Of a stretch of 28,705 bases of DNA, positions 7,674-28,058 are shown piece after piece. The number at the start of each line of letters is the position of its first letter. The first letter of the stretch is position 1. A program made the translations under genes and the position numbers. Origin of the DNA: a virus; the IMG/VR virus record IMGVR_UViG_3300021962_000490, positions 1 to 28,705 of that record; one strand, 5' to 3'. Below the pieces are notes generated by a model that was not told where the DNA came from, did no database searches, and worked only from the letters and a program-made list of their open reading frames with translations.

Positions 7674-8906
7674 ATGACAACAAAGATTACGCCGTCAGTT
7701 CTAGAAAATACGGATGTTGTAGCAGCCACACACGGTACTGGTGCCGCAATACCAGTTATAGTTGTTGATCCACAAGGTAGAATTACTGGTGTCACCAATA
7801 CTACTATTGGTATAGCTACATCTCAAATTACTAGTGGCACACTGGCTGATGCGAGATTGCCTGATACTGGTGCTGCAGCAGGTTCATATGGAAGCGCAAG
7901 TCGTGTTCCAAGAATTATAGTGGATGCAAAAGGCAGAGCAACTGGAGTGGCCAATATTGACATACAAATTGCAACTTCTCAAATCACTGGTTATCCAACA
8001 TTTGCGGCTTCAGCAACCACAGACACAACAAATGCTTCTAATATTAGTTCAGGCACATTACCTGATGCTAGATTAAGTAATGCTGGTACTAACACCGGTT
8101 CATTTGGTTCAGCATCAGCAGTTCCTGCAATTACCGTTGATGCAAAAGGTAGAGTTACGGCTGTAACTGCAACAAATATTGCAATTGGTGCTGGTGCAGT
8201 TTCTGGTTTAGCATCTTCTGCAACCTCAGACACAACAAATGCTGGTAATATCAGTTCAGGTACATTACCGGATGCTAGATTAAGTAATGCTGGTACTAGC
8301 ACTGGTACATTTGGATCAGCATCAGTAGTTCCAAGAATTGCGGTAGATGCAAAAGGTAGGGTTACATCTGTAACTGCAACAAATATTGGAATTGCTGCCG
8401 GTTCAGTTTCTGGTTTAGCAACTGTTGCAACATCTGGAGCATACGGAGATTTGAGTGGAAGGCCCGCCATCCCCGCCATCTACTCACCACCCCAAGGTAT
8501 TGATACTAGTTCAAATCCTCAATTTAATTCATTAGGTATTGGTACTGCAGCCACTGGTACCGGGGGTGAAATTCGTGCAACTAATAACATTACTGCATAT
8601 TATTCTGATGACAGATTGAAAACTAAACTTGGTGACATTGAAAATGCACTAGATAAAATTGAACAATTAAGTGGTTTCTACTATGAAGAAAATGAATTAG
8701 CAGAATCATTAGGGTATACAAAACATCGTCAAATTGGTATATCTGCACAACAGGTTCAAAAACAATTACCGGACTGTGGAGTTGTTGTGCCTGCACCAAT
8801 TGATGAGAAATACTTAACAGTACGTTACGAAAAGTTAATTCCATTATTAATTGAAGGTATTAAAGAATTACGTGCAGAAGTAAAAGAATTGAAAAATAAT
8901 ATTTAA
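7674..8906 (+). CDS. Tail fibre/spike with C-terminal peptidase S74 self-cleaving chaperone, 410 aa
   Basis: The N-terminal two thirds consist of four related beta segments. Three carry GTLxDARL motifs at residues 55, 127 and 196 (spacing 72 and 69), each followed by a VDAKGRxT motif. A linker with YGDLSGRPAIP precedes the last 100 residues, which match the peptidase S74 (endosialidase-type intramolecular chaperone) family: SDDRLK at 311-316, an ISAQQVQKQLP motif, then YEKLIPLLIEGIKEL and a terminal coiled coil. In this family the domain trimerises the fibre and then cuts itself off just before the Ser of S-D-x-R-L-K, using a Ser/Lys pair; here these are Ser311 and Lys316. The mature fibre would therefore be about 310 residues. 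Ribosome site AAAGG at 7661-7665. Confidence 0.9.
   Translation: MTTKITPSVLENTDVVAATHGTGAAIPVIVVDPQGRITGVTNTTIGIATSQITSGTLADARLPDTGAAAGSYGSASRVPRIIVDAKGRATGVANIDIQIATSQITGYPTFAASATTDTTNASNISSGTLPDARLSNAGTNTGSFGSASAVPAITVDAKGRVTAVTATNIAIGAGAVSGLASSATSDTTNAGNISSGTLPDARLSNAGTSTGTFGSASVVPRIAVDAKGRVTSVTATNIGIAAGSVSGLATVATSGAYGDLSGRPAIPAIYSPPQGIDTSSNPQFNSLGIGTAATGTGGEIRATNNITAYYSDDRLKTKLGDIENALDKIEQLSGFYYEENELAESLGYTKHRQIGISAQQVQKQLPDCGVVVPAPIDEKYLTVRYEKLIPLLIEGIKELRAEVKELKNNI
7836..8400 (+). repeat. About 70-codon tandem repeats in the S74 fibre body
   Basis: GTLxDARL starts recur at 7836, 8052 and 8259 (216 and 207 bp apart). The second and third copies are nearly identical over about 50 bp around CTAGATTAAGTAATGCTGG. 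Each unit carries the VDAKGRxTxVTxxNI motif common in phage fibres. Confidence 0.8.
8604..8903 (+). other. Peptidase S74 intramolecular chaperone domain (coding segment)
   Basis: The segment codes for 100 residues starting at the Ser of SDDRLK. Predicted cleavage is between codons 8601-8603 (Tyr) and 8604-8606 (Ser). Catalytic Ser is coded at 8604-8606 and Lys at 8619-8621. Both are intact, so self-cleavage should be functional. The basis is the known S74 family motif. Confidence 0.88.
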
Positions 8907-12154: not shown

Positions 12155-12910
12155 ATGGCAAATGAGAAGTATTTAAATTATTATGTTGAGACTTTGACAA
12201 GCACAATGACAGATTGTGTTATTCGAAATATCTCAATGCAAGCGAATGCGAAAATAACTGATGATGTTGTAAAAGAACAGTCGGAAAAGATTGATGCGTT
12301 AGTAAAATCAAATCTTGAGTTGCAACAAACAATTCAAGAATTGAAACAAAACGGCGAATCAAATCAAAGTAAGGCTGTTCAAGAATTGGAAAATAAATTA
12401 TCTGAAAGTGAAAAACTTGTAACAAAATTAGGTAACGATGTTAACGAATTGAAAAGTAAACATCAAACCGAAATTGATGAATTGATTACTAAATTTCGTG
12501 ACTATGATAGTGTTAAGAATCAAGCTGGGCATGTGGAAACATTTAAAGGTGAATTGGTTAGAGCAAGAGAAGAAACTAATAGGGTTCGTTCAGAACTTGA
12601 AAATAGAATCAACTCTCTTGCATCTGAAAATAATGGAAAAATTAATACATTAACGGAACAGAATGAAAAGACTGTTGCGGCATTATTAAAACAAAATGAA
12701 GATGCTGTTAACAATTTGATTCAGAAACATGAAACTGAAAAAAGTGAATACAACAACAAGATAGACGAATTACTTGCTAAAATTGATTACTTACAACTAC
12801 CTCCTTCCAAAAGAAAAAAAATTGATGAGCTAAATAAAGAAGTGGTACCAACAACCCTAACAGGTTTAATTGGTACTGATGGCCCAATCAAGGATGGCGG
12901 AACGTTTTAA
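12155..12910 (+). CDS. Coiled-coil virion-associated protein, 251 aa, with KDGGTF C-terminus
   Basis: ATG with a strong TAGGAG site at 12143-12148. The N-terminal 36 residues (KYLNYYVETLTSTMTDCVIR, then NISMQANAKI) are followed by a long charged coiled coil from about 38 to 215, rich in Glu, Lys, Asn and Leu. Near the end is a conserved-looking YLQLPPSKRKKIDELN, then a Thr/Gly tail ending DGPIKDGGTF. I recall a family with this exact plan (N-terminal TSTMTD-VIRN-SMQANAKI, SYDSVKNQ-like core, YLQL-P-KRKK) in T4-like cyanophages, annotated only as hypothetical or structural. It contrasts with the Ser/Thr/Ala fibres around it but shares their C-terminal tag. A bridging, length-measuring or assembly role is possible; none is shown. 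Confidence 0.8.
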   Translation: MANEKYLNYYVETLTSTMTDCVIRNISMQANAKITDDVVKEQSEKIDALVKSNLELQQTIQELKQNGESNQSKAVQELENKLSESEKLVTKLGNDVNELKSKHQTEIDELITKFRDYDSVKNQAGHVETFKGELVRAREETNRVRSELENRINSLASENNGKINTLTEQNEKTVAALLKQNEDAVNNLIQKHETEKSEYNNKIDELLAKIDYLQLPPSKRKKIDELNKEVVPTTLTGLIGTDGPIKDGGTF

Positions 12911-12914
12911 GTAA

Positions 12915-13844
12915 ATGTCAAATACAGCAATACGATTAAAAAAATCAGGCGTCACAGGAAACACACCAACAGGCCTGGCCAATGGTGAGTTGGCGCTTAA
13001 CTTTGCCGATGGTAAACTGTATTATAAAAACAGTCTTGGTGGAACATCATACATTTCTAACCAATTTTCTTTTGACACAATCAATGCTAATAGTTCCTTA
13101 ATATTAGCCACAAGTGGTTCAGACACATTGTCTTTTGTTGCTGGTAATAATGTAACCATCAGCACCAATACAACCACAAAAACAATCACGATTAATTCAA
13201 CATCAGGTGGTGATCCTAGCTTCGCTTTTGATAAAGCGAACGCAGCATTTAACAAAGCGAACAGCGCACTTGCTAACACTAATGGTGCCACATTTCAAGG
13301 TCAATTGAATATTACAGGAACACTTAGAGCTCTAACTCAAGGTGGAGATGAAGGTGGTGAAATATTCTTAGACAAAGCTCAAAGCAATACAACTTTGGCA
13401 GCTGGTGTAACAATTGACATTTGGCAAAATAGATTAAGATTTTTTGAAACTGGTGGTTCTGTTCGTGGTGCATATATTGACTTGTCTGCTGCAGGTGCAG
13501 GTGTTAGTAGCGATTTGTTATCTGGTGGGGGTGGTGGTACAGTAGATACTACAGCAAGAGTAAGTGCAGCTGCAGCATTCTTACAAGCTAATTCAGCCTT
13601 TATTGCAGCAAACTCCGCATACGGCGCACAAAATACCACAGGTACATACGCCAACACAGCATTTTCTTTCGCAAATGGTGCATTTATAGCTGCTAACTCA
13701 GCATCCAACTTTGCAAACAGTGCATTTGCAGCAGCCAACATTGCATACATTCATGCAAATGCGGCCTTCAATAAGGCAAATACTGGTGCAACCGCACTTG
13801 ATGTAAACGCCGATATTGTTGCATTTACAATCGCCTTTAGTTGA
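12915..13844 (+). CDS. Tail fibre with Ala-Asn heptad repeats, 309 aa
   Basis: Starts 4 nt after the previous stop. The N-terminal anchor (3-50: IRLKKSGVTGNTPTGLANG, then ELALNFADGKLYY) is the same module as in the 78-aa and 635-aa proteins and matches the common phage-fibre pattern G-E-L-A-x-N-x-A-D-G-K-L. Heptads (DKANAAFNKANSALAN) follow at about 107-122, then a compact domain at about 135-199 (GGEIFLDKA, IDIWQNRLRFFE, RGAYIDL), a Gly-rich hinge, and a second heptad run at about 222-295 (NSAF, ANxAF). The protein ends in a short hydrophobic strand (IVAFTIAFS). The 892-aa fibre downstream ends in a similar strand, and both are followed by a small paralogous protein. Probably trimeric. The ribosome site is weak; coupling to the upstream gene is likely. 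Confidence 0.82.
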   Translation: MSNTAIRLKKSGVTGNTPTGLANGELALNFADGKLYYKNSLGGTSYISNQFSFDTINANSSLILATSGSDTLSFVAGNNVTISTNTTTKTITINSTSGGDPSFAFDKANAAFNKANSALANTNGATFQGQLNITGTLRALTQGGDEGGEIFLDKAQSNTTLAAGVTIDIWQNRLRFFETGGSVRGAYIDLSAAGAGVSSDLLSGGGGGTVDTTARVSAAAAFLQANSAFIAANSAYGAQNTTGTYANTAFSFANGAFIAANSASNFANSAFAAANIAYIHANAAFNKANTGATALDVNADIVAFTIAFS

Positions 13845-13847
13845 TGA

Positions 13848-13855
13848 AATAAATA
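13848..13855 (+). promoter_or_regulatory. T4-type late promoter box AATAAATA
   Basis: Lies 3 nt after the stop of the 309-aa fibre and 18 nt before the ATG at 13874. If the start is 6 nt past the box, the leader is about 13 nt and begins with the ribosome site TAAGGA (13861-13866). It would drive the small beta protein and the 892-aa fibre. Confidence 0.75.
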
Positions 13856-13873
13856 GAGGATAAGGAAATTTAA

Positions 13874-14200
13874 ATGGCAAATACTTTCAAAAATCAACTA
13901 CAAGCAGCAGTCGGAACATCACCAACAACCATCTATACTGCTGGTTCTGGTGTGTCTACTACAGTTATTGGTATGACAATCGCAAACATACTAAACACAA
14001 CCATAACAGCCAATGTGATATTGACTTCTGGTGGATCAGACTACTATATGGTTAAGATGGCTGAGATTGAACCAGGGAATTCACTGATTACAATTGGTGG
14101 TGAACAAAAATTGGTCATGGAAGCCGCAGATGTACTTAAAGTTTCGACAAGTAATGCTTCAGCAGCCGATGTTATCGTAAGTTTATTGGAAATAACATAA
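13874..14200 (+). CDS. Small beta-type virion protein, 108 aa (paralog A)
   Basis: ATG with AAGGA at 13862-13866, directly behind a late promoter. After an N-terminal TTIYTAGSG segment it is a run of beta strands (VIGMTIANILNTTITANVIL, YYMVKMAEI, VIVSLLEIT). It aligns along its length with the gene at 16890: IGMTIANI with INSLIISNI, TANVILTS with AADITVDLF, KLVMEAADVLKV with LSIYLLEGDELRL, and final LLEIT with SFEEIS. The partial gene at 28626 starts in the same way as other members of this family that I recall from T4-like marine phages, where they are annotated as virion structural proteins. It follows a heptad-repeat fibre, as do the other two copies. It may cap or decorate the fibre. Confidence 0.8.
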   Translation: MANTFKNQLQAAVGTSPTTIYTAGSGVSTTVIGMTIANILNTTITANVILTSGGSDYYMVKMAEIEPGNSLITIGGEQKLVMEAADVLKVSTSNASAADVIVSLLEIT

Positions 14201-14201
14201 C

Positions 14202-16880
14202 ATGCAATTCACCTACATTGGCAGTCAAAGTAAAAAGGATGTAAGACTAGCCAGTTCAATTGCCAATGGTGCATTTGTAACTGCTAACTCAGCATCGTTG
14301 TTTGCCAATGGTGCTTTTAGTGCAGCCAACTCCGCATCATTATATGCGAATGCGGCATTCGCAGCGGCCAATTCTGGATCAAGTTCTAGTTTTGCATTTG
14401 ACCAAGCCAATGCAGCCTTTGGTGCGGCCAACTCTGCAAGTCTATATGCCAATGGTGCTTTCAGTCAAGCCAACTTGGCATATGATGCAATTATCACAAG
14501 CAGTAATACTGCTTCATTGTATTATTTGACAAGAACATTTACTGGTGATGGTAGTACAACCGCATTTACAGTAACAGCTAATACTACATCAAATAGTATT
14601 CTTGTTTTTGATAATGGTATTACACAAAATCCAATAGTTGATTATAGTGTAACTGGTACAACATTAACTTTCACAACTGCACCAAGTACCGGATCGGTGA
14701 TACAAGTTCGTGAATTGTTAAGTAATGTACCAGTAGTTACAGATAATTCAAACTCAGCATTCGATAGAGCCAATGCGGCATTTGCTGCAGCGAATTCTGG
14801 TTCTAGTGCCAGCTTTGCTTTTGCTCAGGCAAATGCTGCTTTTATCCAGGCAAATGCTGTATTCAGCCAATCTAATAACCAAGTATGGCCACAAGCTAAT
14901 GCCGCATTTAGTGTTGCAAACTCTGCTTCCAATTTTGCCAACGGAGCTTTCACCAAAGCCAATTCTGCAAATGTTCTGGCACAATCAGCATTCGATGCGG
15001 CAAATTCAGCATCCTCATTTGCTAACGGTGCATTTACAGCCGCCAACCTAAAATTCAATTCAACTGGTGGTACAATTTCTGGTGATGTTTCTATCACAGG
15101 CAACCTTTCTGTAACAGGAAACACATTTAGTACTAGTGCCACACAGATTGTTGCTAATGATACTTTGTTTATTATGGGTACCGGAAATTATTCTGGTGAT
15201 GTACTGGACATTGGATTTGCTGCACACTATAATAACGGAACCAATGCACACACTGGTCTAATCAGAGATGCTAGTACCAAAGAATGGCAATTGTTTGAAG
15301 AATACACTCCAGAAGTTGGTTCAAACAACAACATCATTATCACTGATGGTTCATTTAAACTTGCAACATTAAATGCAAATCTAAAATCGACAACGATTAC
15401 AATCAAGGGTATAGATTTATTACCATATGTTAATAATGCTTTTGATAAGGCTAACTCCAGTGCATCGTTTGCTAACGGTGCTTTTGTTCAAGCCAATTCA
15501 AATTATACAAGTGCTGTCACCAAGTTGGCAGTTACAACTCCTGGAATGTACTACAGTATTGACCAATATTCAGGAAATAATCCAACAATTTATATTCGTG
15601 CTGGTGAAACAATAGCATTTGATCTTGATGTTTCTGGTCATCCATTTATGATTCGTGTGTCATCAGGAGGATCCAATTACAACACAGGTTTAATTCATGT
15701 AGATACAGACGGAACATTAACCACAGGATCTTCAGCTCAAGGAAAAATTACTGGAACATTATATTGGAAAGTTCCTTACGATATCGTTGGTTCAACTTAT
15801 GTATATCAATGTTCTGTTCATTCTGGAATGGTTGGAAATATTGTAATTGACCAACCAACAGCAATTGCATTTACTCAAGCAAACAATGCTTATGATAAAG
15901 CAAATTCGGCTGGTTCATTTGCTAATGGTGCTTTTGATGCAGCCAACTCTGCGGCATCTTTTGCTAATGCATCATTTATAACAGCTAATTCATCTTACAA
16001 TTCACAAAATATAACGGCTGGGTTTGCTAATGGTGCTTTTGCTCATGCTAATGCTGCATTTAATCAAGCAAACACAGGTGGTTCAGATGCATGGGTAAGA
16101 ACTCAGGCTAATAATGCTTATGATACCGCAAATTCAGGAGCCATTTTTGCCAACGGTGCATTCACTGCCGCAAACACCGCAGATTCAAAAGCCACAAGTT
16201 CTGGTTTATTTGCCAATGCAGCTTTTGATAGAGCCAATGCTGCGTTTATTGCTGCAAATACTGGAGGTGGCGGACCAGGAACACCAGTATCAATTTATTC
16301 TGATAGGTTTACTGCAAACGGTGCAACAACAACATTCACTTTAAGTACATCACCAACAAATGAAAATTATATAATTGCTGTTGTAGATGGTATCACACAA
16401 TTCAAAGACACCTATGCTGTTTCTGGTAATGTAGTAACATTCGATAGTACATTTGAAAATGGTGCAAATGTAGAAGTGACCACAATAACAGGCGGTGGTG
16501 CTATAGACCCTTATGCAGCAAATACTGCAAACTTGGCATACGCACAAGCTAATGCTGCATTTAATCAAGCAAACACAGGTGGTTCAGATGCATGGGTAAG
16601 AACTCAGGCTAATAATGCTTATGACAAAGCCAACTCCGGTGCAACCTTTGCTAATGGTGCATTCTTAACAGCCAATTCTGGTGCAGTTTTTGCAAATGCA
16701 GCATTCATTACAGCCAATGCGGCCTTTGCTGCAGCAAATGCAGGTGGCGGTGCGGATACATATGCTAGAACAACCGCAAATGCTGCATTCATTCAGGCCA
16801 ATGCTGCATTCACACAAGCAAATACAGGTGGTACATCATTATCAAAGGCGATTGCAATGTCAATTGTTTTCGGATTCTAA
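14202..16880 (+). CDS. Mosaic tail fibre, 892 aa, with heptad repeats and an internal cupredoxin-like domain
   Basis: Starts 1 nt after the previous stop. Runs of the heptad A-N-x-A-F/S-x-x (about 16-95, 180-285, 405-435, 555-690, 765-880) are predicted trimeric coiled-coil shafts. Between them lie discrete domains: a beta domain at about 112-175 (FTGDGSTTAFTV, ILVFDNGITQ, DYSVTGTTLTF); the DIGFAAHYNNG block at about 290-400 shared with the 635-aa fibre; a cupredoxin-like domain at about 436-550; and a second beta domain at about 697-763 (FTANGATTTFTL). It ends in a short hydrophobic strand (IAMSIVFGF). An exact 77-bp direct repeat lies inside (16047 and 16548). Fibre identity is strong; the copper site is discussed separately. 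The following gene is a small paralog of the preceding one. Confidence 0.85.
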   Translation: MQFTYIGSQSKKDVRLASSIANGAFVTANSASLFANGAFSAANSASLYANAAFAAANSGSSSSFAFDQANAAFGAANSASLYANGAFSQANLAYDAIITSSNTASLYYLTRTFTGDGSTTAFTVTANTTSNSILVFDNGITQNPIVDYSVTGTTLTFTTAPSTGSVIQVRELLSNVPVVTDNSNSAFDRANAAFAAANSGSSASFAFAQANAAFIQANAVFSQSNNQVWPQANAAFSVANSASNFANGAFTKANSANVLAQSAFDAANSASSFANGAFTAANLKFNSTGGTISGDVSITGNLSVTGNTFSTSATQIVANDTLFIMGTGNYSGDVLDIGFAAHYNNGTNAHTGLIRDASTKEWQLFEEYTPEVGSNNNIIITDGSFKLATLNANLKSTTITIKGIDLLPYVNNAFDKANSSASFANGAFVQANSNYTSAVTKLAVTTPGMYYSIDQYSGNNPTIYIRAGETIAFDLDVSGHPFMIRVSSGGSNYNTGLIHVDTDGTLTTGSSAQGKITGTLYWKVPYDIVGSTYVYQCSVHSGMVGNIVIDQPTAIAFTQANNAYDKANSAGSFANGAFDAANSAASFANASFITANSSYNSQNITAGFANGAFAHANAAFNQANTGGSDAWVRTQANNAYDTANSGAIFANGAFTAANTADSKATSSGLFANAAFDRANAAFIAANTGGGGPGTPVSIYSDRFTANGATTTFTLSTSPTNENYIIAVVDGITQFKDTYAVSGNVVTFDSTFENGANVEVTTITGGGAIDPYAANTANLAYAQANAAFNQANTGGSDAWVRTQANNAYDKANSGATFANGAFLTANSGAVFANAAFITANAAFAAANAGGGADTYARTTANAAFIQANAAFTQANTGGTSLSKAIAMSIVFGF
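15520..15850 (+). other. Cupredoxin-like (type 1 copper) domain inside the 892-aa fibre
   Basis: Residues about 440-550 read as a Greek-key beta domain: TIYIRAGETIAFDLDVSGHP, then a long middle, TLYWKVPYDIVGSTYVYQC, and SVHSGMVGNIVI. Plastocyanin-like proteins bind copper with one His in the first half and a Cys-x2-His-xn-Met loop near the end. Here His480, Cys537, His540 and Met543 fit, with a short C-x2-H-x2-M loop as in amicyanin. No other Cys is near. Similar GHPF and YYCxxHSGM sequences occur, as I recall, in virion proteins of marine T4-like phages. Copper binding is inferred. Confidence 0.65.
16047..16123 (+). repeat. 77-bp exact direct repeat, copy 1
   Basis: Identical, base for base, to 16548-16624. 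The offset is 501 bp (167 codons), so recombination between copies would keep the reading frame. It codes for a heptad segment with AFNQANTGGSDAWVRTQANN. Confidence 0.95.
16548..16624 (+). repeat. 77-bp exact direct repeat, copy 2
   Basis: Second copy of the sequence at 16047-16123. The interval between the copies holds a heptad run and the second beta domain of the 892-aa fibre. Confidence 0.95.
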
Positions 16881-16889
16881 GGATTTAAA

Positions 16890-17249
16890 ATGGCAAACCC
16901 AAACATAGCAGCACTAACAACAATTAATGGAAATACACAAGTACAATCGGTGACAACATCGGCGACTTCGATTGCAAACAATCCTTCATCCAGTGGTAAA
17001 ATATTAAAAATTAATTCGTTGATTATTTCCAATATTCATGCAACTAGTGCGGCAGATATAACAGTTGATTTGTTTAGAAGTGCGACTGCATACAAATTGG
17101 TTAGCACCATTTCGGTTGCAGCAGATACTTCCTTCACAGCCATTGACAAAACACTTTCCATTTATTTGTTGGAAGGTGATGAATTGAGATTAACGGCCAG
17201 TACCAATAGTATATTACAAGCAGTGTGTTCGTTTGAGGAGATCAGTTAA
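16890..17249 (+). CDS. Small beta-type virion protein, 119 aa (paralog B)
   Basis: ATG preceded by AAGGA at 16879-16883, which overlaps the upstream stop. Paralog of the 108-aa protein at 13874 and, by its start, related to the one beginning at 28626. Key segments are SVTTSATSIANNPSSSGKIL, INSLIISNI, AADITVDLFRS, AYKLVSTISV and LEGDELRLTAS, ending SFEEIS. I recall near-identical patterns in T4-like cyanophage proteins annotated as virion structural. All-beta, no signal or membrane segment, one Cys near the end. Its stop codon overlaps the ATG of the 2320-aa protein by 1 nt, so the two are translationally coupled. It probably sits on or between fibres. Confidence 0.82.
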   Translation: MANPNIAALTTINGNTQVQSVTTSATSIANNPSSSGKILKINSLIISNIHATSAADITVDLFRSATAYKLVSTISVAADTSFTAIDKTLSIYLLEGDELRLTASTNSILQAVCSFEEIS

Positions 17250-20200
17250 TGTTTAATGCCGGTGTTAGAGGCAAAAGAGCAAAAGATTCAACAGGTCTTA
17301 TTACAGTTGGTGAACATTTTAACCAACAAACTTTCCTGGTACCTACTGTTACCCGTTTTGCGGTAACTGATGGCTCTTATGTTGACACAAATGATACCGC
17401 AGCCGACACAGTAGGTGGTCAAACAATCGTTCTGTATGGGTCAGGTTTTGCACCAGGTGCAACCGTTTTGGTTGGGTCTACTACGATAGGCGTAGTAACA
17501 TTCCTGGATTCTGGCCGTCTGGCATTCAGTTCTCCTGCATTAGGTTCTGGTAGTTATACCATTTTTGTTACCAATGCAAATGGTGGTACTGGTATTCTTG
17601 TACCAGGTTTGGTATATTCTGGTGTACCAACATTCACCACATCAGCCGGTTCATTGGGTTCTGTATATGAAACAACTGCAATCAACACAACTGTTGTTGC
17701 AACCGGCGATGCACCAATTACATATGCATTATCTTCTGGTTCTTTGCCTTCAGGTTCAACACTGAGTTCTGGTGGTACAATTTCAGGCACTGCACCTGTG
17801 GATGGTTCAAGTACAACATATTCGTTTACTATACAAGCAACTGATGCGGATAATCAAGATTCTGTTCGTTCATTTTCTCTTACAATCAATACAGATGTTG
17901 TTTCATTTTCATCACCAGCAAACAACACAACAACCACTGCAACACAAAATACTGCAATATCAAATGTGACAGTTGTTGCAACTTCTGCGGCCGGTTATGG
18001 CGTACTGTATACCTCCAGTGGATTGCCAACTGGTCTATCAATGAATACCTCTACTGGTATTATTTCTGGTACACCAACTATTGTTGCAAGTAACACATCA
18101 ATCATAACTGCGACTGCAAATACAACAAATAGAAGTGCAACAAGATATTTGAACTGGACAATAAATCTTCCTGGTGACTTGTTCTGGAAGTATGCATCAT
18201 TATTAATGAGTGCAAGCACAGTACCAAACGGAAATACATTCAATACAGATGCGAGTACATTTAATAATGAAATTGTGGTTAGTGCAGATACAAAGCCAAA
18301 TGAGTTTCATCCTTTTAAAGAAGGATATTACAGCAATTTATTTGATGGTACTGGGGATTATTTGGCCATATTGACCAGTTCCGCTTTCAACATTGCTACC
18401 AATAGTTTTACAGTAGAAGCATGGATCAATACCAGTTCAGCAACACAACAATCAATTTTTAACATTTCAGATACTGGCAGTTCAGGATATGGAGCAGTCC
18501 GTGTTCAAGTATTGGCCAATCAAACCGTACAATGGTTAATGGGTCCAGGCGGTTCTTGGGGTGTGGCAGTAACCGCAGGATCAATTGTTTTGGGAGCATG
18601 GAACCACATTGCAATTACTCGCAACGGATCATCTGTATATTTCTTTATTAATGGATTGCAAGTAGGTACAACACAAACTTACGCAACTTCTTTAACAACT
18701 GGTGGCACAACATACATTGGTTTTAATAGCGGCACATCATTTGCATTTAACGGTTATATTTCCAATCTTAGATTTGTAAATGGCACCGCATTATATACCG
18801 CAAATACAACTCCAGCGACTGCACCACTAACATATGTGGCCAACACCAGTTTGATAACATGTCAATCTAATAGACTGATTGACAATTCAAATAATAACTT
18901 TACAATCGTAAAGGGTGGTGATACAAGAGTTAATCCATTTAGCCCATTCAACGGCACACCAACAACAATCACTGTGCCTGATGCAAACAATTACAGTGTT
19001 TATTTTGATGGTACTGGTGATTATTTGAGTGGACCTTCAAACTATCCTTTAATTACAACCGGTCCATTTACAATTGAATTTTGGGTATATCAGCCAACCC
19101 TTGCAGCAAAAACCTTGATTTTTAATGCACATTGGGATATTGGCCAGAATGGTGGATTTAGGGTTAATTTGTCAGCATCTGGTGCTGTTGTTTTTGATGC
19201 ATCAACTGGAACATATAATACATTTCCAAATGTATTTACCAGCACATCAACTATATCTGCAAGCACTTGGTCGCACATTGCAATTGTTAGAAATTCTAGC
19301 AATAGTATTTCTTGTTACATAAATGGCGTACTTGCACGAACTCCTGTAACATATGCTTCTAGTTTAAGTTTATCTTCGGATGGTAATATTGGCCAACTGA
19401 GAATTGGAGCTGGTATATATGATGGTGGAGCTGCCGATTTATTTACTGGATACATCAGTAATCTTAGAATATTAAATACTGCTTTATATTCTGGCAATTT
19501 CACACCATCAAACTCACCATTGGGATTTACACAATCATCATCAGCAAATACTGCCGCACTAACAGCACTACCAACAAATGGAGCTAGTGTTTATTTTGAT
19601 GGTACTGGAGATTATTTGACCTTTACTAATACCACTGCACAAGGTGTTAATTTTGGAACAGATGATTTTACAGTTGAATTATGGTATTACATGACAAATA
19701 ATACTACGAATTCAACATATCATACTTTTATTAGACAAGATACTACTACCGGTGCATTTGATTTTGGATACAGACCTAGCGCCACACAATTAGTATTGGC
19801 AAGAAACGGTACCGGTGAGGTTACCGCTTCAGTTACTCTGGCGTTGAATACTTGGAATCATATTGCAGTTTCTCGTTCAGGTACAAATTTAAGATTTTTT
19901 GTAAATGGTACTCAAGTTGGTTCTACTGCTACAAATTCATATAATTTTTCAGTTACTGGTGGAACTGTTCGTATAGGTAGTAATAATTTTAATGGTACAT
20001 ACACTGCGTATGGCTACATATCTAACCTACGCAGTGTTCGTTCAGCAGTCTATACTTCTACATTCACTCCAAGTACCGTACCACTAACAGCAATTGCCAA
20101 CACCAGTTTGCTGACTTGCCAATCATATTCGTCATCCAATAATAGAGTAATAATTGATAATTCTACAAATGCATACACTATTTCATCAGTTGGTGACTCA

Positions 20201-23200
20201 ATTGGAAAAACATTAAGTCCATTTGCCAATACACCATCAATTTTGATGGCTCAAGCAAATACAATTATTGATAGTAGTAATAATGGAATAACATTCACAG
20301 TAAGTGGTGATACAAGACCAGCAATAAACGGGCCTTTTGCAAACACATCAACAGTTACTTTAGTTGGTAATGAAGGCTCAGCATACTTTGATGGTGCTGG
20401 GGATTGTTTAGGAGCAGAATCATCAAATGGTATTTTACCTGCGGATTTTACTGTAGAAATGTGGGTGTACTTAACATCATCTATAGCAAACCAACCGCTC
20501 GTTGCGTTTGGCACTGAAGTATCTGGTAGATTTGCTTTGTTGACAAATGCATCGGGACAGTTGAAATATGGTATTTATGGAGATGCAACAGAATATATAT
20601 ATACAACAATTGCTATGGTACTCAATACTTGGACACATGTGGCCTTTTCGAGAACTGGCACTAACATGTATGCATTTATAAATGGCGCTTCAGCAGGCGC
20701 AGTAAGGACATTATCTGGTTCTAGAGGTAATGGTACTAGAATTAGTGTGGGGGCATCAGCAGCTCGAGATTCATCTATGACTGGATATCTGTCCAATGTA
20801 AGAGTTGTTAATGGTACTGGATTATACACCAGTGCGTTTGTTCCTTCTTTTGCACCACTAATGCCTGTGGCCAATACAGTATTGTTGACAGCACAAACAA
20901 ATTTATCTTCGAATACAAAAGTAATAGTTGATGAAAGTAATTTTGCTGGTGTAGTTTCAGGATTTGGAAATGCAAACTTAGGCACATTTAGTCCATCTGG
21001 CAGTTCATGGAGTGTATATTTTGATGGTACTGGAGATTATTTGAGTGGATCATCTTCACGATTAAATTTTGGTGCCAATGATTTCACTGTTGAATTTTGG
21101 ATGTGGCCAGTAAACATATCCACAAACTCTCAAATAATTTTTCAAGCAGGATCAGGAAATCTTGCAATACTATTAATGACTAATGGTTTGATAGAACCTG
21201 GACAATATCAAACAGCAGGTATTAGTCAAAGTACAGCAGGAGCAATAGTAGCAGGAGCATGGCACCATGTTGTTGTAACAAGAACAGGCACCGCATTTAG
21301 AACTATTATTGATGGTGTGTTGCGTGGTTATGGAACAAGAAGTTTTTCACCAAATAACAGTTCATATACAATTGGTGGTGCAGCTTCTGGTACTGCTTAT
21401 ACCGGTTATATTTCCAATTTTAGAGTGTTTGCAAATAATATACCAACACTATACAGCACATCATCAACAACACTTGCAACAACAATATTCACGACACCAA
21501 CAGATCCATTTGTTGTTGATGCAAACACAGTATTACTAACTTGTAACTCAAATCAATTTGTTGATTACTCTGCGGCCAATAATGTGATTACAAGAACTGG
21601 TGATACTGCTGTATCCAAATTCAGCCCATTCAGTTCAGTTACAGTAACACCTGCAAGTTATAGTGGTTATTTTGATGGTACTGGGGATTATTTAACAACT
21701 TCTGCGGCATTTAACTCCGCAATGGTTGGTCTTGCAGGATCAAAATGGACAATTGAGGCTTGGGTAAACATTAGAACAATAACCGCACTCAACTCATATT
21801 ATGTTCCAGTAATTGGAACTTATGCGGCCGTGGCAGCAAACGGCCGTTGGTGGTTTGGTTATGATGGTAATGCTGCATCAGGTACCAATGCAAGAGGGCA
21901 TTTTACTTATACTACAGGCACAGGAACTCAAGTAGATTTAATTGCTACCGCAACATTTAGCTTTAATGTTTGGACTCATATTGCAGTTACAATTGATGCA
22001 ACTACATCTTCATCAAGTACCATTACAATATACACCAATGGTGTGGGTGAAACATTCACTGCACAAAATATGTCAACACAAACTTCCAATTATAGTGCGC
22101 CAAATATTGGCGGAAACTTGTATTTAAATGCACACATTGGTTACATTTCAAATCTTCGTGTAGTTAAAGGCACCACAGTCTATACCGAAACATTTACTCC
22201 ACCAACTACACCTCTCACAGCAATTGCCAACACCAGTTTGTTAACTTGCCAGTCAACAACATTTATTGATAATTCAAACAATGCATTTGCAATCACAGTC
22301 AACGGTGACGCAAAGCCTGTGATACAAAATCCATTTACTGATACTGTTGGTGTGACAACAAATTATTCTGCAAACACTTTTGGTAACAGTGTGTATTTTG
22401 ATGGTACGACAGATTACTTGACGATACCATATAATCCTAGTTTTAATATACCCGCAAGTACACCTTTTACTTGTGAAGCATGGGTTTATCAACCTTCTTC
22501 CACAGAATTCCATGTTTTAAATAGAAATTGGGCGTATGGTTCTTCTGGATCAACTTATGGTTTTGGTATTGGTAACGATATGAAACCTTTTTGGTCTATT
22601 GGTGGCACTGGTGTATCTACATATAATATGATAAATGCCGGCACAGCTGGTAAACCTGGCCAATGGAACCATTTTGCTTGGTCAAGAGATACTAGTAATG
22701 TTTGTAGAGTGTTTACAAATGGTGTTGAGACAGTATCGGTGACCAGAACAGATTCACAGGCAATGTCTACCACATCAGGTAGTGCGTTTGTTGGTGTTAC
22801 ATCTAACTTAGCTTCACCTTATGCAAGCGGTTATCTTTCAAATTTAAGATTTATTGTTGGTTCATGTTTATACAATAGAAACTTTGTACCTTCCAATCAG
22901 CCATTACCAGTAACATCAAATACCTCAATATTACTTGCGAGCACAGTAGGTCCATCAACAGCAGATGCAACAAGAAACCACAATATAGAAACTTTTGGTA
23001 CCGCAAGACATGTGGCCAACAATTCACCATACTACGATACATACAGTGGTTACTTTGATGGTACTGGAGACTATTTGACTTTTGGTGCAAACCAAGAAAA
23101 CTTAGGCCTTGGCACAGGAGACTTCACATTAGAATTCTGGTTCAACGCAGCAACAATACCATCAACAGAAATTGATATTTTTGAATCACAAACAAACAAC

Positions 23201-24211
23201 TCACTCAGAATACTCAAAAGAGCTTCAAGTTCTGGATTGTCATTCGATCCATATGGAGGTTCTGCCACTTTGATTATGGCAGATGCAAGTATTACAACAA
23301 ATACATGGCACCATGTTGCAATCTCAAGAACTTCTGGAACTACAAGTGCATATTATGATGGTACCAGAGTTGTTAACCAAGCAGATTCAACAAATTATGC
23401 AACACCAACAGTAAACTATGGTGTTGGTGGTCGTGCATCTGGTGCAAACTATTTTAACGGTTACATTTCAAATATGAGACTGGTCAAAGGTACTGGTTTA
23501 TATTCAGGCACAACGATTACGGTTCCTACAGGTCCTTTGACAGCAGTAACAAATACACAGTTGTTAATTTGCAATACAAATAGGTTTATTGATAGTTCAA
23601 CCAATGCATTTACCATTACAAAAGCTGGTGATGCAAAGATAACCGCATTCGAACCTTTTGTCGGCAGCAATATCTCAAGATTCAATTCTGTGTATTTTGG
23701 TACCAAAACAGATTATCTTGCTGTAAGACAACAAGCAAATCTTAAAGTTTTCCCTGGTGACTTTACATTCGAATGCTGGGTGTATCCAACAGACACTACA
23801 CTTAGTACTACTTGGGGTATTTGGGATAGTAGACAATCCAATGCAACAGCAGCAGCAATGACTTTTTCTTTAGGTCCTCTGGCATCACCAGTAAGTGGTT
23901 CATGGAGACTGGCATATTTTAACGGAACTACTTATTATGGTACAGGAATAGTTTTATCGAATCAATGGTCACATGTGGCTTGGGTTCGTAGTGGAACAAC
24001 AATGACTTTCTATGTAAATGGTGTTGCAGGTGGAACAGCAACAATTTCTGGCACACAAACCGCTACCGTAACAACCAATCCTATTTACATTGGCGCAAAA
24101 GATAACGGCTTGGCCAATTATGGAACAGTTGGTTATATTGCAGATTTCAGAATCACAAACGGTTATGCAAGAACTATAACTGTACCGACAGCCCCATACG
24201 ATATCAAATAA
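17249..24211 (+). CDS. Giant adhesin-like virion protein, 2320 aa: IPT, two Ig-like and nine LamG lectin-type domains
   Basis: ATG overlaps the previous stop, with GAGGAG at 17235-17240. A short N-terminal anchor (1-35) is followed by an IPT/TIG-like domain (about 37-125: GGQTIVLYGSGFAPGATVLV), two Ig-like putative domains (about 127-215 and 219-308: GLPTGLSMNTSTGIISGTPT), then nine LamG/concanavalin-type domains whose YFDGTGDYL motifs begin at residues 364, 585, 782, 1046, 1257, 1474, 1716, 1935 and 2149. Each continues FTVEFW, a W-H-A-R strand, a NG turn, and GYISNLRxVxGTxLY, then LLTCQ and NSNNxFT. LamG domains commonly bind glycans. The fourth copy has GAGDCL and the ninth FGTKTDYL, departures from the motif. 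No self-chaperone or enzyme motif is seen. I infer a long multivalent glycan-binding fibre or side appendage. Confidence 0.85.
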   Translation: MFNAGVRGKRAKDSTGLITVGEHFNQQTFLVPTVTRFAVTDGSYVDTNDTAADTVGGQTIVLYGSGFAPGATVLVGSTTIGVVTFLDSGRLAFSSPALGSGSYTIFVTNANGGTGILVPGLVYSGVPTFTTSAGSLGSVYETTAINTTVVATGDAPITYALSSGSLPSGSTLSSGGTISGTAPVDGSSTTYSFTIQATDADNQDSVRSFSLTINTDVVSFSSPANNTTTTATQNTAISNVTVVATSAAGYGVLYTSSGLPTGLSMNTSTGIISGTPTIVASNTSIITATANTTNRSATRYLNWTINLPGDLFWKYASLLMSASTVPNGNTFNTDASTFNNEIVVSADTKPNEFHPFKEGYYSNLFDGTGDYLAILTSSAFNIATNSFTVEAWINTSSATQQSIFNISDTGSSGYGAVRVQVLANQTVQWLMGPGGSWGVAVTAGSIVLGAWNHIAITRNGSSVYFFINGLQVGTTQTYATSLTTGGTTYIGFNSGTSFAFNGYISNLRFVNGTALYTANTTPATAPLTYVANTSLITCQSNRLIDNSNNNFTIVKGGDTRVNPFSPFNGTPTTITVPDANNYSVYFDGTGDYLSGPSNYPLITTGPFTIEFWVYQPTLAAKTLIFNAHWDIGQNGGFRVNLSASGAVVFDASTGTYNTFPNVFTSTSTISASTWSHIAIVRNSSNSISCYINGVLARTPVTYASSLSLSSDGNIGQLRIGAGIYDGGAADLFTGYISNLRILNTALYSGNFTPSNSPLGFTQSSSANTAALTALPTNGASVYFDGTGDYLTFTNTTAQGVNFGTDDFTVELWYYMTNNTTNSTYHTFIRQDTTTGAFDFGYRPSATQLVLARNGTGEVTASVTLALNTWNHIAVSRSGTNLRFFVNGTQVGSTATNSYNFSVTGGTVRIGSNNFNGTYTAYGYISNLRSVRSAVYTSTFTPSTVPLTAIANTSLLTCQSYSSSNNRVIIDNSTNAYTISSVGDSIGKTLSPFANTPSILMAQANTIIDSSNNGITFTVSGDTRPAINGPFANTSTVTLVGNEGSAYFDGAGDCLGAESSNGILPADFTVEMWVYLTSSIANQPLVAFGTEVSGRFALLTNASGQLKYGIYGDATEYIYTTIAMVLNTWTHVAFSRTGTNMYAFINGASAGAVRTLSGSRGNGTRISVGASAARDSSMTGYLSNVRVVNGTGLYTSAFVPSFAPLMPVANTVLLTAQTNLSSNTKVIVDESNFAGVVSGFGNANLGTFSPSGSSWSVYFDGTGDYLSGSSSRLNFGANDFTVEFWMWPVNISTNSQIIFQAGSGNLAILLMTNGLIEPGQYQTAGISQSTAGAIVAGAWHHVVVTRTGTAFRTIIDGVLRGYGTRSFSPNNSSYTIGGAASGTAYTGYISNFRVFANNIPTLYSTSSTTLATTIFTTPTDPFVVDANTVLLTCNSNQFVDYSAANNVITRTGDTAVSKFSPFSSVTVTPASYSGYFDGTGDYLTTSAAFNSAMVGLAGSKWTIEAWVNIRTITALNSYYVPVIGTYAAVAANGRWWFGYDGNAASGTNARGHFTYTTGTGTQVDLIATATFSFNVWTHIAVTIDATTSSSSTITIYTNGVGETFTAQNMSTQTSNYSAPNIGGNLYLNAHIGYISNLRVVKGTTVYTETFTPPTTPLTAIANTSLLTCQSTTFIDNSNNAFAITVNGDAKPVIQNPFTDTVGVTTNYSANTFGNSVYFDGTTDYLTIPYNPSFNIPASTPFTCEAWVYQPSSTEFHVLNRNWAYGSSGSTYGFGIGNDMKPFWSIGGTGVSTYNMINAGTAGKPGQWNHFAWSRDTSNVCRVFTNGVETVSVTRTDSQAMSTTSGSAFVGVTSNLASPYASGYLSNLRFIVGSCLYNRNFVPSNQPLPVTSNTSILLASTVGPSTADATRNHNIETFGTARHVANNSPYYDTYSGYFDGTGDYLTFGANQENLGLGTGDFTLEFWFNAATIPSTEIDIFESQTNNSLRILKRASSSGLSFDPYGGSATLIMADASITTNTWHHVAISRTSGTTSAYYDGTRVVNQADSTNYATPTVNYGVGGRASGANYFNGYISNMRLVKGTGLYSGTTITVPTGPLTAVTNTQLLICNTNRFIDSSTNAFTITKAGDAKITAFEPFVGSNISRFNSVYFGTKTDYLAVRQQANLKVFPGDFTFECWVYPTDTTLSTTWGIWDSRQSNATAAAMTFSLGPLASPVSGSWRLAYFNGTTYYGTGIVLSNQWSHVAWVRSGTTMTFYVNGVAGGTATISGTQTATVTTNPIYIGAKDNGLANYGTVGYIADFRITNGYARTITVPTAPYDIK
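18335..24200 (+). repeat. Nine tandem LamG-coding repeats (about 590-790 bp each)
   Basis: Motif codons for L/Y-F-D-G begin at 18338, 19001, 19592, 20384, 21017, 21668, 22394, 23051 and 23693 (the ninth reads YFGTK). Spacing is 197-264 codons. Short stretches such as CAATTGCCAACACCAGTTTG recur exactly between units (about 20092 and 22222), but most of the units have diverged, so the array is old with local homogenisation. Confidence 0.85.
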
Positions 24212-24214
24212 ATA
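24207..24214 (+). promoter_or_regulatory. T4-type late promoter box AATAAATA
   Basis: Overlaps the stop codon of the 2320-aa gene and lies 20 nt before the ATG at 24235. The predicted leader is about 15 nt and begins with AAAAGG (24220-24225), the ribosome site. It would drive the fibre and glycine-rich genes that follow. Confidence 0.75.
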
Positions 24215-24234
24215 GTATAAAAAGGCTATAATTA

Positions 24235-25818
24235 ATGTCAACTCAAGTACCTCCATCAAGATTAGATTCAACTAAAGATTTTTCATCTTTGGTTCCTTCT
24301 GCATTTGCACAGGCTAATGCCGCTTATGCACAGGCAAACACTGGAGGTGCCGATTCTTGGGCTAGAAATACAGCCAATGCAGGATTTATTACTGCAAATT
24401 CGGCATCATTATTTGCCAATGGAGCTTTTGATAAAGCCAATGCGGCATACAATGCAGCCAATAATGCATCAGATACATGGGTAAGAACACAAGCAAACAA
24501 TTCTTATGATACTGCAAACTCTGCTGGTCTATATGCTAACGGAGCATTTACGGCAGCCAATACTGCCGATGAAAAATCAACCAGTGCAGGATTATACTCA
24601 AACGGAGCATTTAATTCTTCCAACTCGGCCAGTCTGTATGCCAATGGTGCATTTGGTGCAGCCAATTCGGCAAGTTTGTATGCAAATGGAGCATTTGCAG
24701 CGGCCAATTCTGGTTCAAGTGCAGGTTTTGCTTTTAGTCAGGCCAATGCTGCTTTTGCACAGGCTAATGCTGCGTTTGCTCAAGCAAATACTGGTGGTTC
24801 TAGTGCAGATTCGTGGGCTAGAGATCAAGCCAATTCTTCTTTTGACAAAGCCAACTCAGCCAATACTTTAGCACAATCTGGATTTGATAAAGCTAATAGT
24901 GCTAATACTCTAGCACAGTCAGGGTTTAATGTATCCAATGCGGCATTCATTCAAGCCAATGCTGTTTTCACTCAATCTAACAATCAGGTTTGGCCTCAGG
25001 CAAATGCTGCTTTTAGTGCAGCCAACTCCGCATCATTATATGCCAATGCAGCCTTTGCTGCAGCAAATGCAGGTGGCGGTGGTGGTTCTGATACATGGGC
25101 CAGAGAACAGGCCAATGCAGCATTCATAACAGCCAACTCAGCATCAACTTACGCAAATACACCTTATATCAGTAGTGGAACAAGTAATGTGAGTATGACC
25201 ACATCTGGTGGAAATATTTACATGAATGTTGGTGGCGTAAATATGGTCAACATTTCCACCACATGGGCAAATGTAACAGGTAATATTGCTGCAACACAAG
25301 GTGTTTATTCTGCTGTAGTAAACACAACATCAATATATGCAACAAGCAATATAATTACTGCAAATATTAGAACAACTGGTAGTGCTGGTAACATATCTGG
25401 TGCAAATTATGTTACCTCAAACTTCTTTATTGGTGAAGGCTCAGCACTAACAAACTTGAAACCAAACACTCATATGACAATTGCATTGAGTGATGAAACA
25501 ACTTCAATCACAACAGGTGTGGCCAAAATTACATTCAGAGCACCTTTTGCCATGACTTTGACTCAAATTCCAAGAGCATCATTGTCTGTTGTAAGTTCAT
25601 CTGGTAATCCAACAGTTGATATTGATAAAAATGGTGTATCAATTTTCAGTACACAGTTATCTATAGATGCCAACGAAAAAACAAGCACTACTGCTGCAAC
25701 ACCAGCTGTTCTTTCTACAACTACATTTGCTGATGATGATGAAATAACTATGGATGTTACTACGGCAGGAACAGGTGCAAAAGGTCTAAAAGTTACATTA
25801 TATTATAGGAGAACATAA
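24235..25818 (+). CDS. Tail fibre with long Ala-Asn heptad shaft, 527 aa
   Basis: First gene behind the late promoter at 24207. The N-terminus (STQVPPSRLDSTKDFSSLV) is paralogous to that of the 65-aa protein at 28419. Residues about 21-320 are an almost unbroken heptad A-N-x-A-F/S-x-x, a predicted trimeric coiled coil, with the peptide QSNNQVWPQANAAFS also found in the 892-aa fibre. A beta region follows (about 310-410, with GNISGANYVTSNFFIGEGSA). The C-terminal domain (about 415-527: VAKITFRAPFAMTLT, STQLSIDANEKTSTTAATPA, LKVTLYYRR) is one I recall at the ends of other phage tail proteins. It overlaps the next gene by 1 nt, so fibre and glycine-rich protein are probably made together, as adhesin and fibre are in T-even phages. 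Confidence 0.85.
   Translation: MSTQVPPSRLDSTKDFSSLVPSAFAQANAAYAQANTGGADSWARNTANAGFITANSASLFANGAFDKANAAYNAANNASDTWVRTQANNSYDTANSAGLYANGAFTAANTADEKSTSAGLYSNGAFNSSNSASLYANGAFGAANSASLYANGAFAAANSGSSAGFAFSQANAAFAQANAAFAQANTGGSSADSWARDQANSSFDKANSANTLAQSGFDKANSANTLAQSGFNVSNAAFIQANAVFTQSNNQVWPQANAAFSAANSASLYANAAFAAANAGGGGGSDTWAREQANAAFITANSASTYANTPYISSGTSNVSMTTSGGNIYMNVGGVNMVNISTTWANVTGNIAATQGVYSAVVNTTSIYATSNIITANIRTTGSAGNISGANYVTSNFFIGEGSALTNLKPNTHMTIALSDETTSITTGVAKITFRAPFAMTLTQIPRASLSVVSSSGNPTVDIDKNGVSIFSTQLSIDANEKTSTTAATPAVLSTTTFADDDEITMDVTTAGTGAKGLKVTLYYRRT
24295..25164 (+). repeat. Heptad (21-bp) repeat run coding for A-N-x-A-F/S-x-x
   Basis: Codons for Ala-Asn recur at 7-residue steps, often as a 14-residue double unit (ANSASLYANGAFAA). 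The same unit appears in four other genes of the window. The segment near 25045-25080 (CTTTGCTGCAGCAAATGCAG) is almost identical to one near 16724-16750 in the 892-aa fibre. Confidence 0.85.
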
Positions 25819-26705
25819 TGTCTGGGTTTTTACTTAACCCTTATAGTTATGCAGTTGCAGCTTTAAGTGGACCTCTAACTGTAGATATACTAGTTCTTTC
25901 TGGTGGTGCAGGCGGCGGTGGTCGAAGCGGCGGTGGTGGAGGTGCAGGTGGTTATACCTCATACACAAGTCAAACTCTCACTAGAGGTGTTACATATACA
26001 GTAACTGTTGGTGCTGGTGGTTCTTCTGGTGGTGGCGCATCAAACCTTAGAGGTGGCTCAGGAAATCCAACAAGTATATCTGGTTCAGGCTTTACAACAC
26101 TATCAACATCAGGTGGCGGTGGCGGCGGTTCAGGTACAGCTGCTACAACTGGCAACTCAGGTAATAGTGGTGGTTCAGGTGGCGGCGGCGGCAAAGCATC
26201 CACTGGTGCCAGCGGTATTGCTGGCGAAGGTAATAACGGTGGTAATGGTGCAGCTGGTACAAACAGAGGCGGTGGTGGCGGTGGTGGCGCTGGAGCTGTT
26301 GGCGGCACTGCTGCAACGACACCAACTCCTTCACCTGCTGGCGCAGGCGGTAATGGATCAGCCTGGTTAAACAGCACCACTTACGGTGGTGGTGGCGGTG
26401 GCGGCGGTTATTTCCCTGGCGGTAACTCACGAGCAGCAGGTGGTGGCTCTGGTGGTGGCGGCGCTGGCGGCGAAACACTAAACACAGGCAATGGCGGCGA
26501 CGGCGGCAACAACCTAGGTGGCGGTGGTGGTGGTGGAGGCGGTGGTCCTACAGCTGGTGGTGCCGGTGGTAAAGGTATTTTAATTGTAAGATTTATAAAC
26601 ACTGAACCTGATGCTCAAGGATACACTGGTTCAAACGTGGTATTTGCAGACGTTGGTGGTTATAAGTATTACACATTCAATGAATCAGGAACACTCTTAG
26701 CTTAA
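25818..26705 (+). CDS. Glycine-rich adhesin-like protein, 295 aa (copy 1)
   Basis: ATG overlaps the previous stop (TAATG). After a short N-terminal part (SGFLLNPYSYAVAAL) comes VDILVLSGGAGGGG, the usual opening of the phage and bacterial glycine-rich (Gly_rich_2-type) domain, then repeated GGGGGG tracts separated by short variable loops, and a closing KGILIVRF strand. The last 30 residues (NVVFADVGGYKYYTFNESGT) recur in the next gene. In T-even and S16-like phages the fibre-tip adhesin gp38 has a core of poly-Gly helices and carries the receptor-binding loops. A comparable role is inferred here from composition and from the coupling to the fibre; there is no evidence of strict homology. Codons are GC-richer than the neighbours because of Gly. 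Confidence 0.8.
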   Translation: MSGFLLNPYSYAVAALSGPLTVDILVLSGGAGGGGRSGGGGGAGGYTSYTSQTLTRGVTYTVTVGAGGSSGGGASNLRGGSGNPTSISGSGFTTLSTSGGGGGGSGTAATTGNSGNSGGSGGGGGKASTGASGIAGEGNNGGNGAAGTNRGGGGGGGAGAVGGTAATTPTPSPAGAGGNGSAWLNSTTYGGGGGGGGYFPGGNSRAAGGGSGGGGAGGETLNTGNGGDGGNNLGGGGGGGGGGPTAGGAGGKGILIVRFINTEPDAQGYTGSNVVFADVGGYKYYTFNESGTLLA

Positions 26706-26720
26706 CATAGGAATTACAAA

Positions 26721-27653
26721 GTGGTTTTTAGAATAGGTCCAGGAATAACAATAGAAGGCGGTATAACATATACAAGACCAACTGTTGATTTGTATGAAGT
26801 AGAATATCTTATCGTTGCTGGCGGTGGCGGCGGCGGCAGTCGTAGAGGTGGTGGTGGCGGTGCTGGAGGATATGTAACAGGAAACACAATATCACAACTA
26901 GGGCACACATTCACCGTAACAGTAGGCACAGGAGGAACGGGTACAGCTTCAGGAAGCTCAGCCACAGCAGGAAGTGGCAATGGTAGTTCATTAGCTGGTT
27001 CAAACATATCAACAGTCACGGCCACCGGCGGTGGCGGCGGCGGTACAAGTGGTTCACCAAGTGGTGGCACAGCTGGTGCCGGTGGCGGTTCTGGTGGTGG
27101 CGCAAGTGGATCATTTGCTCCATCGGGTAGTGGAGGAGGCGCCGGAACTTCTGGCCAAGGTAATAATGGCGGCGGCGGATCAGGCATATCTAACGGGCTA
27201 GGTGCTGGCGGTGGTGGCGCAGCGAGTGCAGGTATAAACAGTGGTAGTGATACTTATAATAATGGTTATGGTGGTGATGGTAAATATTGGATTGATGGAA
27301 TTAAATATGCCGGTGGTGGTGGCGGTGGCGCTGTTTCAGGTTCCGCTTATGTTGGTGAAGGTGGCGGCGGCACCGGCGGTTTTGGTGATGGTGGTGGGCT
27401 TGGTGGTTTTTTCGGCGGTGGTGGACAATATGTTGAAGCAAGCGCTGGCGGAGAAAATAGAGGTGGAGGCGGCGGTGGTGGCGGTGGCGGTTCACCAGTA
27501 GGAGCTGGCGCCAATGGTGGTAAAGGTGTAGTAATTATTGCTTGGCCAGATTCATATCCGCCAGCAACAAGTACCACAGGAAGCCCAATATACACTTTGA
27601 TTGGAGAATATAGATACTATACTTTCACTTCTTCAGGAACTATGACAATTTAA
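26721..27653 (+). CDS. Glycine-rich adhesin-like protein, 310 aa (copy 2), GTG start
   Basis: The start is GTG at 26721, supported by AGGAA at 26709-26713 and by the 15-nt gap to the previous stop; no ATG in frame lies near. The order matches copy 1: VEYLIVAGGGGGGSRRGGGG, AGGYVTGN, FTVTVGTGG, several poly-Gly tracts with differing loops, KGVVIIAW, and a final YRYYTFTSSGTMTI. The two copies agree in framework and differ in the loops, as expected for proteins that recognise different surface targets or for a duplicated gene under diversifying selection. The gene is followed by AGAGGA, the ribosome site of the next gene. Adhesin function is inferred; the GTG start is unusual for this window. Confidence 0.8.
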   Translation: MVFRIGPGITIEGGITYTRPTVDLYEVEYLIVAGGGGGGSRRGGGGGAGGYVTGNTISQLGHTFTVTVGTGGTGTASGSSATAGSGNGSSLAGSNISTVTATGGGGGGTSGSPSGGTAGAGGGSGGGASGSFAPSGSGGGAGTSGQGNNGGGGSGISNGLGAGGGGAASAGINSGSDTYNNGYGGDGKYWIDGIKYAGGGGGGAVSGSAYVGEGGGGTGGFGDGGGLGGFFGGGGQYVEASAGGENRGGGGGGGGGGSPVGAGANGGKGVVIIAWPDSYPPATSTTGSPIYTLIGEYRYYTFTSSGTMTI

Positions 27654-27663
27654 AGAGGAAATA

Positions 27664-28026: not shown

Positions 28027-28033
28027 AATAAAG

Positions 28034-28041: not shown

Positions 28042-28058
28042 CCTCTAAGAGGATAAAA

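Follow-up and report, generated by a model that had tools for sequence, protein, structure and literature searches.

Exact 77-bp direct repeats in a T4-type tail-fibre gene: a likely footprint of recent in-frame copying

A tail-fibre-like gene of an uncultured virus carries two identical 77-bp segments in direct orientation and in one reading frame. We consider it likely that this pair is the footprint of recent in-frame copying within a T4-type tail-fibre gene, and that the same process is continuing in the gene family. The window, that is the whole stretch of DNA analysed, is a 28,705-bp IMG/VR virus record taken in its entirety, and is a metagenome contig. The features of the fibre gene are listed below in window coordinates, L followed by a number designating related loci and contigs.

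14202..16880, + strand: tail-fibre-like ORF of 892 aa, with an Ala/Asn-rich heptad shaft, several beta-rich modules and the C-terminus ...GTSLSKAIAMSIVFGF.
14532..14726, + strand: first XD/T7-fibre-N-like beta domain, about aa 111-175, with a DNGITQ motif.
15495..15848, + strand: gp9-like module, aa 432-549, resembling the C-terminal part of cyanophage gp9.
16047..16123, + strand: repeat copy 1, aa 616-641; it falls in shaft that is predicted to be helical and has a TGGSDAW break, at a position common to L024 and L037.
16290..16490, + strand: beta domain lying between copies 1 and 2, about aa 697-763 (residues 137-203 of the structure model), with a predicted fold like CBA120 TSP4 187-250 (XD2).
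16548..16624, + strand: repeat copy 2, aa 783-808; its sequence is that of copy 1, and it is likely the derived copy.
16571..16747, + strand: copy-2 stretch, comprising most of copy 2 and the next shaft heptads, which L024, a close relative, lacks and which shows as an alignment gap in other relatives.

The two copies match at 77/77 positions, and the match is maximal, no further base being shared on either side. They are spaced by 501 bp, or 167 codons, and lie in a single frame of ORF 14202-16880, exactly at the coordinates given in the initial annotation. No other exact direct repeat in the window is as long, the runner-up measuring 36 bp. According to the structure model, both copies sit in helical shaft around the TGGSDAW break. 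Inside the repeat, residues (25/25) and codons (25/25) are identical between the copies. Directly downstream, 11 of 14 residues agree, yet only four of those 11 are encoded by the same codon; directly upstream, 5/14 residues agree and none of these five has an identical codon. Given the same residues and the codon usage of the gene, the chance of a 25/25 codon agreement is about 10^-8.2. When synonymous codons of the gene were shuffled, 0/1000 shuffles reached a repeat of 77 bp, the maximum being 41 bp. Because the copies are exactly identical, beyond what synonymous shuffling produces and with all codons matched, we conclude that they most likely arose by recent copying, which upholds the initial interpretation of the identity. 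A purely selective origin, in which a constraint on the protein or the DNA would keep the copies alike without recent copying, is consistent with the recurrence throughout the family of the WVRTQANNAYD motif encoded by the repeat. However, a match of every codon, synonymous choices included, next to a stretch where similar residues are encoded by different codons, makes this explanation highly improbable, the more so as the best other versions of the 77-mer among the fetched loci have at most 88% DNA identity.

By its sequence, ORF 14202-16880 is a member of the T4-type tail/baseplate fibre family: aa 119-550 match PHROG 677 (baseplate wedge tail fiber protein connector, E 1.1e-18), and part of this region, the module at aa 432-549 that we take to be cupredoxin-like, resembles cyanophage gp9. 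A Pfam PF03906 match at aa 111-211, which includes the first beta domain, is weak (E 0.002) and below the cut-off. A search of the fibre gene against GenBank phages by blastn gave no match, and a sequence search against solved structures gave none either. The major capsid protein gene of T4-type phages (gp23) was found in 9/9 long contigs with related genes and a RecA-family gene in 7/9, from which we infer that the fibre-gene family is T4-type; the same would hold, through these relatives, for the window phage, represented here by a 28.7-kb fragment.

Related loci numbered 71, plus more reached via neighbouring genes. In an alignment of the C-terminal third of the window gene with six relatives, copy 2 and the next ~100 bp were missing from all six, L033 carrying another, shorter insert at the same site. 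L024 and L033 match the 5' flank of copy 2 at the equivalent position. The context of copy 1 (VRTQANNAYDTANSGAIFANGAF) is also present in L024 and L037, as is the sequence following it (DTANSGAIFANGAF...). From these comparisons, copy 1 probably occupies the older site and copy 2 is probably a recent in-frame derived copy. Since the aligned relatives are without copy 2, the repeat pair does not look like a conserved device. Copy 1 itself is identical to L037 at 67/77 positions and to L024 at 64/77, and the sequence directly downstream at 114/127 and 121/127, respectively. Because of this low identity of copy 1 the direction of copying is not certain, and copy 1, too, may have been overwritten at an earlier stage. 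A degenerate DNA pattern of the repeat, searched against viral contigs, matched 0 contigs.

The copy-2 module could also have been imported from the fibre gene of a co-infecting relative that carried the same segment, rather than from the gene's own copy 1. Such an origin would fit the known mosaicism of T4-type fibre genes, as presented in PMC2993671. It would also fit the resemblance, at ~80%, of the stretch after copy 2 to the shaft of other loci, and the existence in family members of 77-mer versions up to the 88% identity mentioned above. The segment nevertheless has 100% identity with the gene's own copy 1, more than with any fetched relative, and we regard import as possible but rather improbable.

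Repeats are a classic source of assembly error, and a mis-join or a mixture of strains in this metagenome contig might have created copy 2; moreover, 77 is among the k-mer sizes of a common assembler. Several observations argue against this, and we judge an artefact very unlikely. Each copy has its own unique flanks on both sides, and the 5' flank of copy 2 is the one shared with L033 and L024. The repeat, like the 65-bp repeat described below, is shorter than typical (150-bp) reads. Among the 114 repeats of 40 bp or more found in the family, the k-mer sizes of assemblers were not over-represented and only three repeats measured 77 bp, so that a k-mer artefact was rejected.

Our preferred explanation, copying within the gene, can be set out as follows. 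A shaft segment at the older place (copy 1) would have been copied into the shaft beyond the next beta domain, giving copy 2. The most likely route would be homologous recombination between shaft repeats, which are numerous and alike, whether these belong to a single genome or to different phages in a co-infection. This process would still be at work in the family, where the shaft would grow and shrink by whole codons, often by whole 7-residue units, and where one shaft repeat would overwrite another. The 77-bp repeat may, in addition, permit the reverse event, a 501-bp loss that would carry away an XD2-like putative docking domain.

Exact repeats were found to be widespread in this family. 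The set used for shuffling comprised 90 distinct fibre-like ORFs chosen by motif density, with near-identical ORFs retained, and 71 of them were at least 300 aa long; 100 synonymous shuffles were made per relative ORF and 1000 per window ORF. Of these 71 ORFs, 41 contained an internal repeat that was exact over 40 bp or more, and in 50/71 the repeat length exceeded that in all of the ORF's own shuffles. The spacing of the 114 distinct repeats was divisible by 3 in every case (114/114) and by 21 in 44. In-frame repeated segments, a mark of repeat-mediated remodelling, are found inside the fibre gene. Two exact matches connect ORF 14202-16880 with the fibre ORF 24235-25818, one of 36 bp (14312-14347 = 25008-25043) and one of 31 bp (16722-16752 = 25051-25081), which suggests, at the sequence level, that exchange may also occur between fibre genes, besides within one.

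Natural length variants were observed in the relatives. Pooling several comparisons of near-identical phages, which concern relatives and not the lineage of the window phage itself, gave eight distinct fibre indels, of 42, 42, 63, 63, 84, 231, 393 and 771 bp, all in frame:

42 bp: L040/L038, also L181/L176.
42 bp: L027/L031; the repeats bounding the two 42-bp indels measure 48 and 11 bp.
63 bp: L049/L050.
84 bp and 63 bp: L010/L012; the 84-bp indel is bounded by a repeat of 89 bp, and the two 63-bp indels by repeats of 125 and 20 bp.
231 bp: L009/L007, bounding repeat of 19 bp.
393 bp: L019/L020, bounding repeat of 27 bp, counted by eye from the alignment.
771 bp: L058/L055, with a junction homology of just 2 bp.

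The sizes of 6/8 are multiples of 21 bp, and exact direct repeats (11-125 bp) bound seven of the eight in the longer form. As judged from translations, each of the eight takes away shaft sequence only. When 180 pairs of loci were surveyed, indels divisible by 3 accounted for 7/7 in fibres versus 4/14 in other ORFs. We had expected a clearly higher indel rate in fibre genes, which this crude survey did not reveal: the seven indels per 331,920 compared bases in fibres were not clearly above the 14 per 1,002,750 in other ORFs. The surveyed pairs are not independent, and the survey did not pick up the 231-bp indel, probably because of its filters. The indels of fibre genes thus differ from those of other genes in kind, being in frame and often bounded by repeats, and not clearly in rate. 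A non-fibre ORF of two near-identical contigs (L043:6892 versus L044) also showed an indel, of 138 bp, with an exact direct repeat of 119 bp at its boundaries.

Single-base differences between near-identical fibre genes were analysed in 12 non-redundant contrasts chosen out of 17. A donor 21-mer existed elsewhere in the other gene for 29/107 SNPs, forming 11 tracts in the 12 contrasts, compared with 2/214 for control bases seen in neither allele at the same sites; five of the 12 contrasts had no donor SNP. A clustering of SNPs in one copy of a repeat is seen in four near-identical fibre genes that contain a 65-bp repeat with a spacing of 816 bp:

L018:4026-6197
L019:7674-9845
L020:5603-7774
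L021:7674-9845

Three of their four variable sites fall within the second copy of the repeat, and at each of the three the variant base is that of the other copy. Such tracts are what intragenic conversion predicts, although switching during assembly could mimic them, since all sequences are metagenome assemblies in which repeat-driven errors can take the form of conversion. Ongoing gene conversion, which the initial annotation had offered as an alternative to recent copying, finds support in these tracts for this kind of gene. In the literature covered, which was seen in part and included few subscription journals, we recognized no description of gene conversion between the shaft repeats of a single tail-fibre gene, and we do not claim that none exists.

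We also considered what lies between the two copies. The structure model covers aa 561-892 and has a mean pLDDT of 48, a low confidence overall. In it, a single beta domain (model residues 137-203) interrupts the helices; over most of this domain the local pLDDT is ~74-82. The best structural match of this domain is CBA120 TSP4 187-250 (Z 10.4, rmsd 1.2 over 64 residues, 27% identity), so that in the model it has a fold of the gp10/TSP4 XD2 type. Because the N-terminus of T7 gp17 (7boz, Z 8.7) and T4 gp10 (5iv5, Z 7.5) also match, more weakly, its exact subtype is less sure. According to PMC8825819, TSP4 187-250 is XD2, a trimeric site at which a partner tailspike docks, and XD2/XD3 of T4 gp10 serve likewise as docking sites for gp12 and gp11. 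The segment between the copies may thus be a docking module. It has the same beta-domain fold as the domains of these proteins, but is embedded in the helical shaft of a fibre, close to the C-terminus, and a docking function would have to be read from the fold. If the XD2 match is correct, loss of the 501 bp would take away a putative docking site, beyond shortening the fibre. The name "second beta domain" given to it initially is apt insofar as it is the second XD-like domain of the gene, other beta-rich regions being present between the first (~aa 111-175) and this one.

Computed loss of one repeat-to-repeat unit keeps the frame and leaves 725 aa. To this extent the in-frame 501-bp deletion proposed at first is sound, and repeat-bounded in-frame indels in near-identical relatives lend it plausibility, but no such allele was found among the sequences collected. 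The further suggestion of a switch in fibre form, in which recombination between the 77-bp copies would recurrently drop and restore the 501 bp and so maintain long and short fibres in the population, would account for identical in-frame copies that flank a whole beta domain and could make use of the RecA-family gene known from the relatives. It fares badly on other grounds. The domain motif is retained, 88-166 residues before the end, in 9/9 ORFs with the GTSLSKAIAMSIVFGF end (about seven independent ones, as two near-identical pairs are included), and because of this retention the sequences suggest that the domain may be needed. The natural indels remove shaft only, copy 2 has the appearance of a derived element, and the segment, once lost, cannot come back from that genome alone. 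We therefore consider the switch unlikely and did not retain this suggestion.

Two other known types of variation were rejected. In a diversity-generating retroelement, a template and a variable repeat differ mainly at adenines and a reverse transcriptase is encoded; here there are 0 differences between the copies, both are coding, and no reverse transcriptase was detected among the scanned window proteins, some small ORFs lying outside the scan. In invertible tail-fibre switches, inverted repeats flank the variable segment and an invertase is present; here the copies are direct, and positions 12900-28705 contain only four inverted pairs (20-24 nt, between shaft motifs), none of which flanks the segment.

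Intragenic copying could have a wider consequence, which we put forward as a doubtful idea only. Shafts might be self-templating, exact repeats kept alike by ongoing conversion letting the phage's own recombination insert, remove or swap gp10-like docking domains. One genotype could then yield fibres with different partner spikes, and the 77-bp pair would be the boundary of such a cassette.

Remodelling of fibres by in-frame duplication is already established, the conversion signal and the docking-domain reading being the fresher parts of this work. The T4 gp37 adhesin undergoes in-frame duplications of small segments with an effect on host range (Tetart et al. 1996, as cited in PMC2248197). 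The window gene similarly shows a small in-frame duplication inside a T4-type tail-fibre gene, but what is duplicated there is shaft sequence around a docking-like domain; the host-range effect belongs to T4, and any such effect in the window phage would be presumptive. In the Xanthomonas phages OP1, Xp10 and Xop411, tail-fibre domains are duplicated or deleted, and repeats have been suggested to act in both gain and loss (PMC2248197). As here, fibre domain copy number differs between related phages; that case, however, concerns another phage group, direct repeats of 5-8 bp and N-terminal domains, and host-range mutants were isolated. Enterococcus phage EfV12-phi1 acquired 1.8-kb tandem duplications in its tail fibre under coevolution (PMC6365445). 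Its copies are in frame within one fibre gene, like those of the window, and several forms co-exist in the population; they are much longer, tandem and experimentally evolved, whereas the window has a dispersed 77-bp pair in one contig. Hypervariable host-recognition clusters are known in aquatic T4-type phages (PMC7029224), and the fibre length classes of tailocins are a further parallel (PMC13250502).

Judged by its predicted proteins, the entire window resembles a cluster of fibre and adhesin genes, including those for an S74 endosialidase-chaperone protein, a 2320-aa laminin-G-like protein and a glycine-rich protein. Besides ORF 14202-16880, fibre proteins are encoded at, for instance, 12915-13844 and 24235-25818. 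The laminin-G-like ORF (17249-24211) contains nine such stretches (Pfam PF13385, E 2.4e-150). The S74-chaperone ORF (7674-8906) contains a 207-bp tandem duplication at 8001-8414, whose units are 86% identical. The neighbouring ORFs 27664-28026 and 28059-28412 encode clearly similar proteins and represent a tandem gene duplication, the first matching PHROG 7759. A further Ala/Asn shaft segment begins near the end of the record (28497-28570), where an additional fibre gene is probably cut by the contig end.

Tail fibres decide to which bacteria a phage can attach. Many separately assembled contigs of uncultured T4-type phages suggest that fibre genes bear their own recombination substrates. Among the few SNPs that separate near-identical phages, a considerable fraction look like copies of sequence from other parts of the gene. 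Should reads confirm this, natural populations could be used to gauge the speed of fibre remodelling, and could reveal which modules, shaft or docking domains, selection lets vary.
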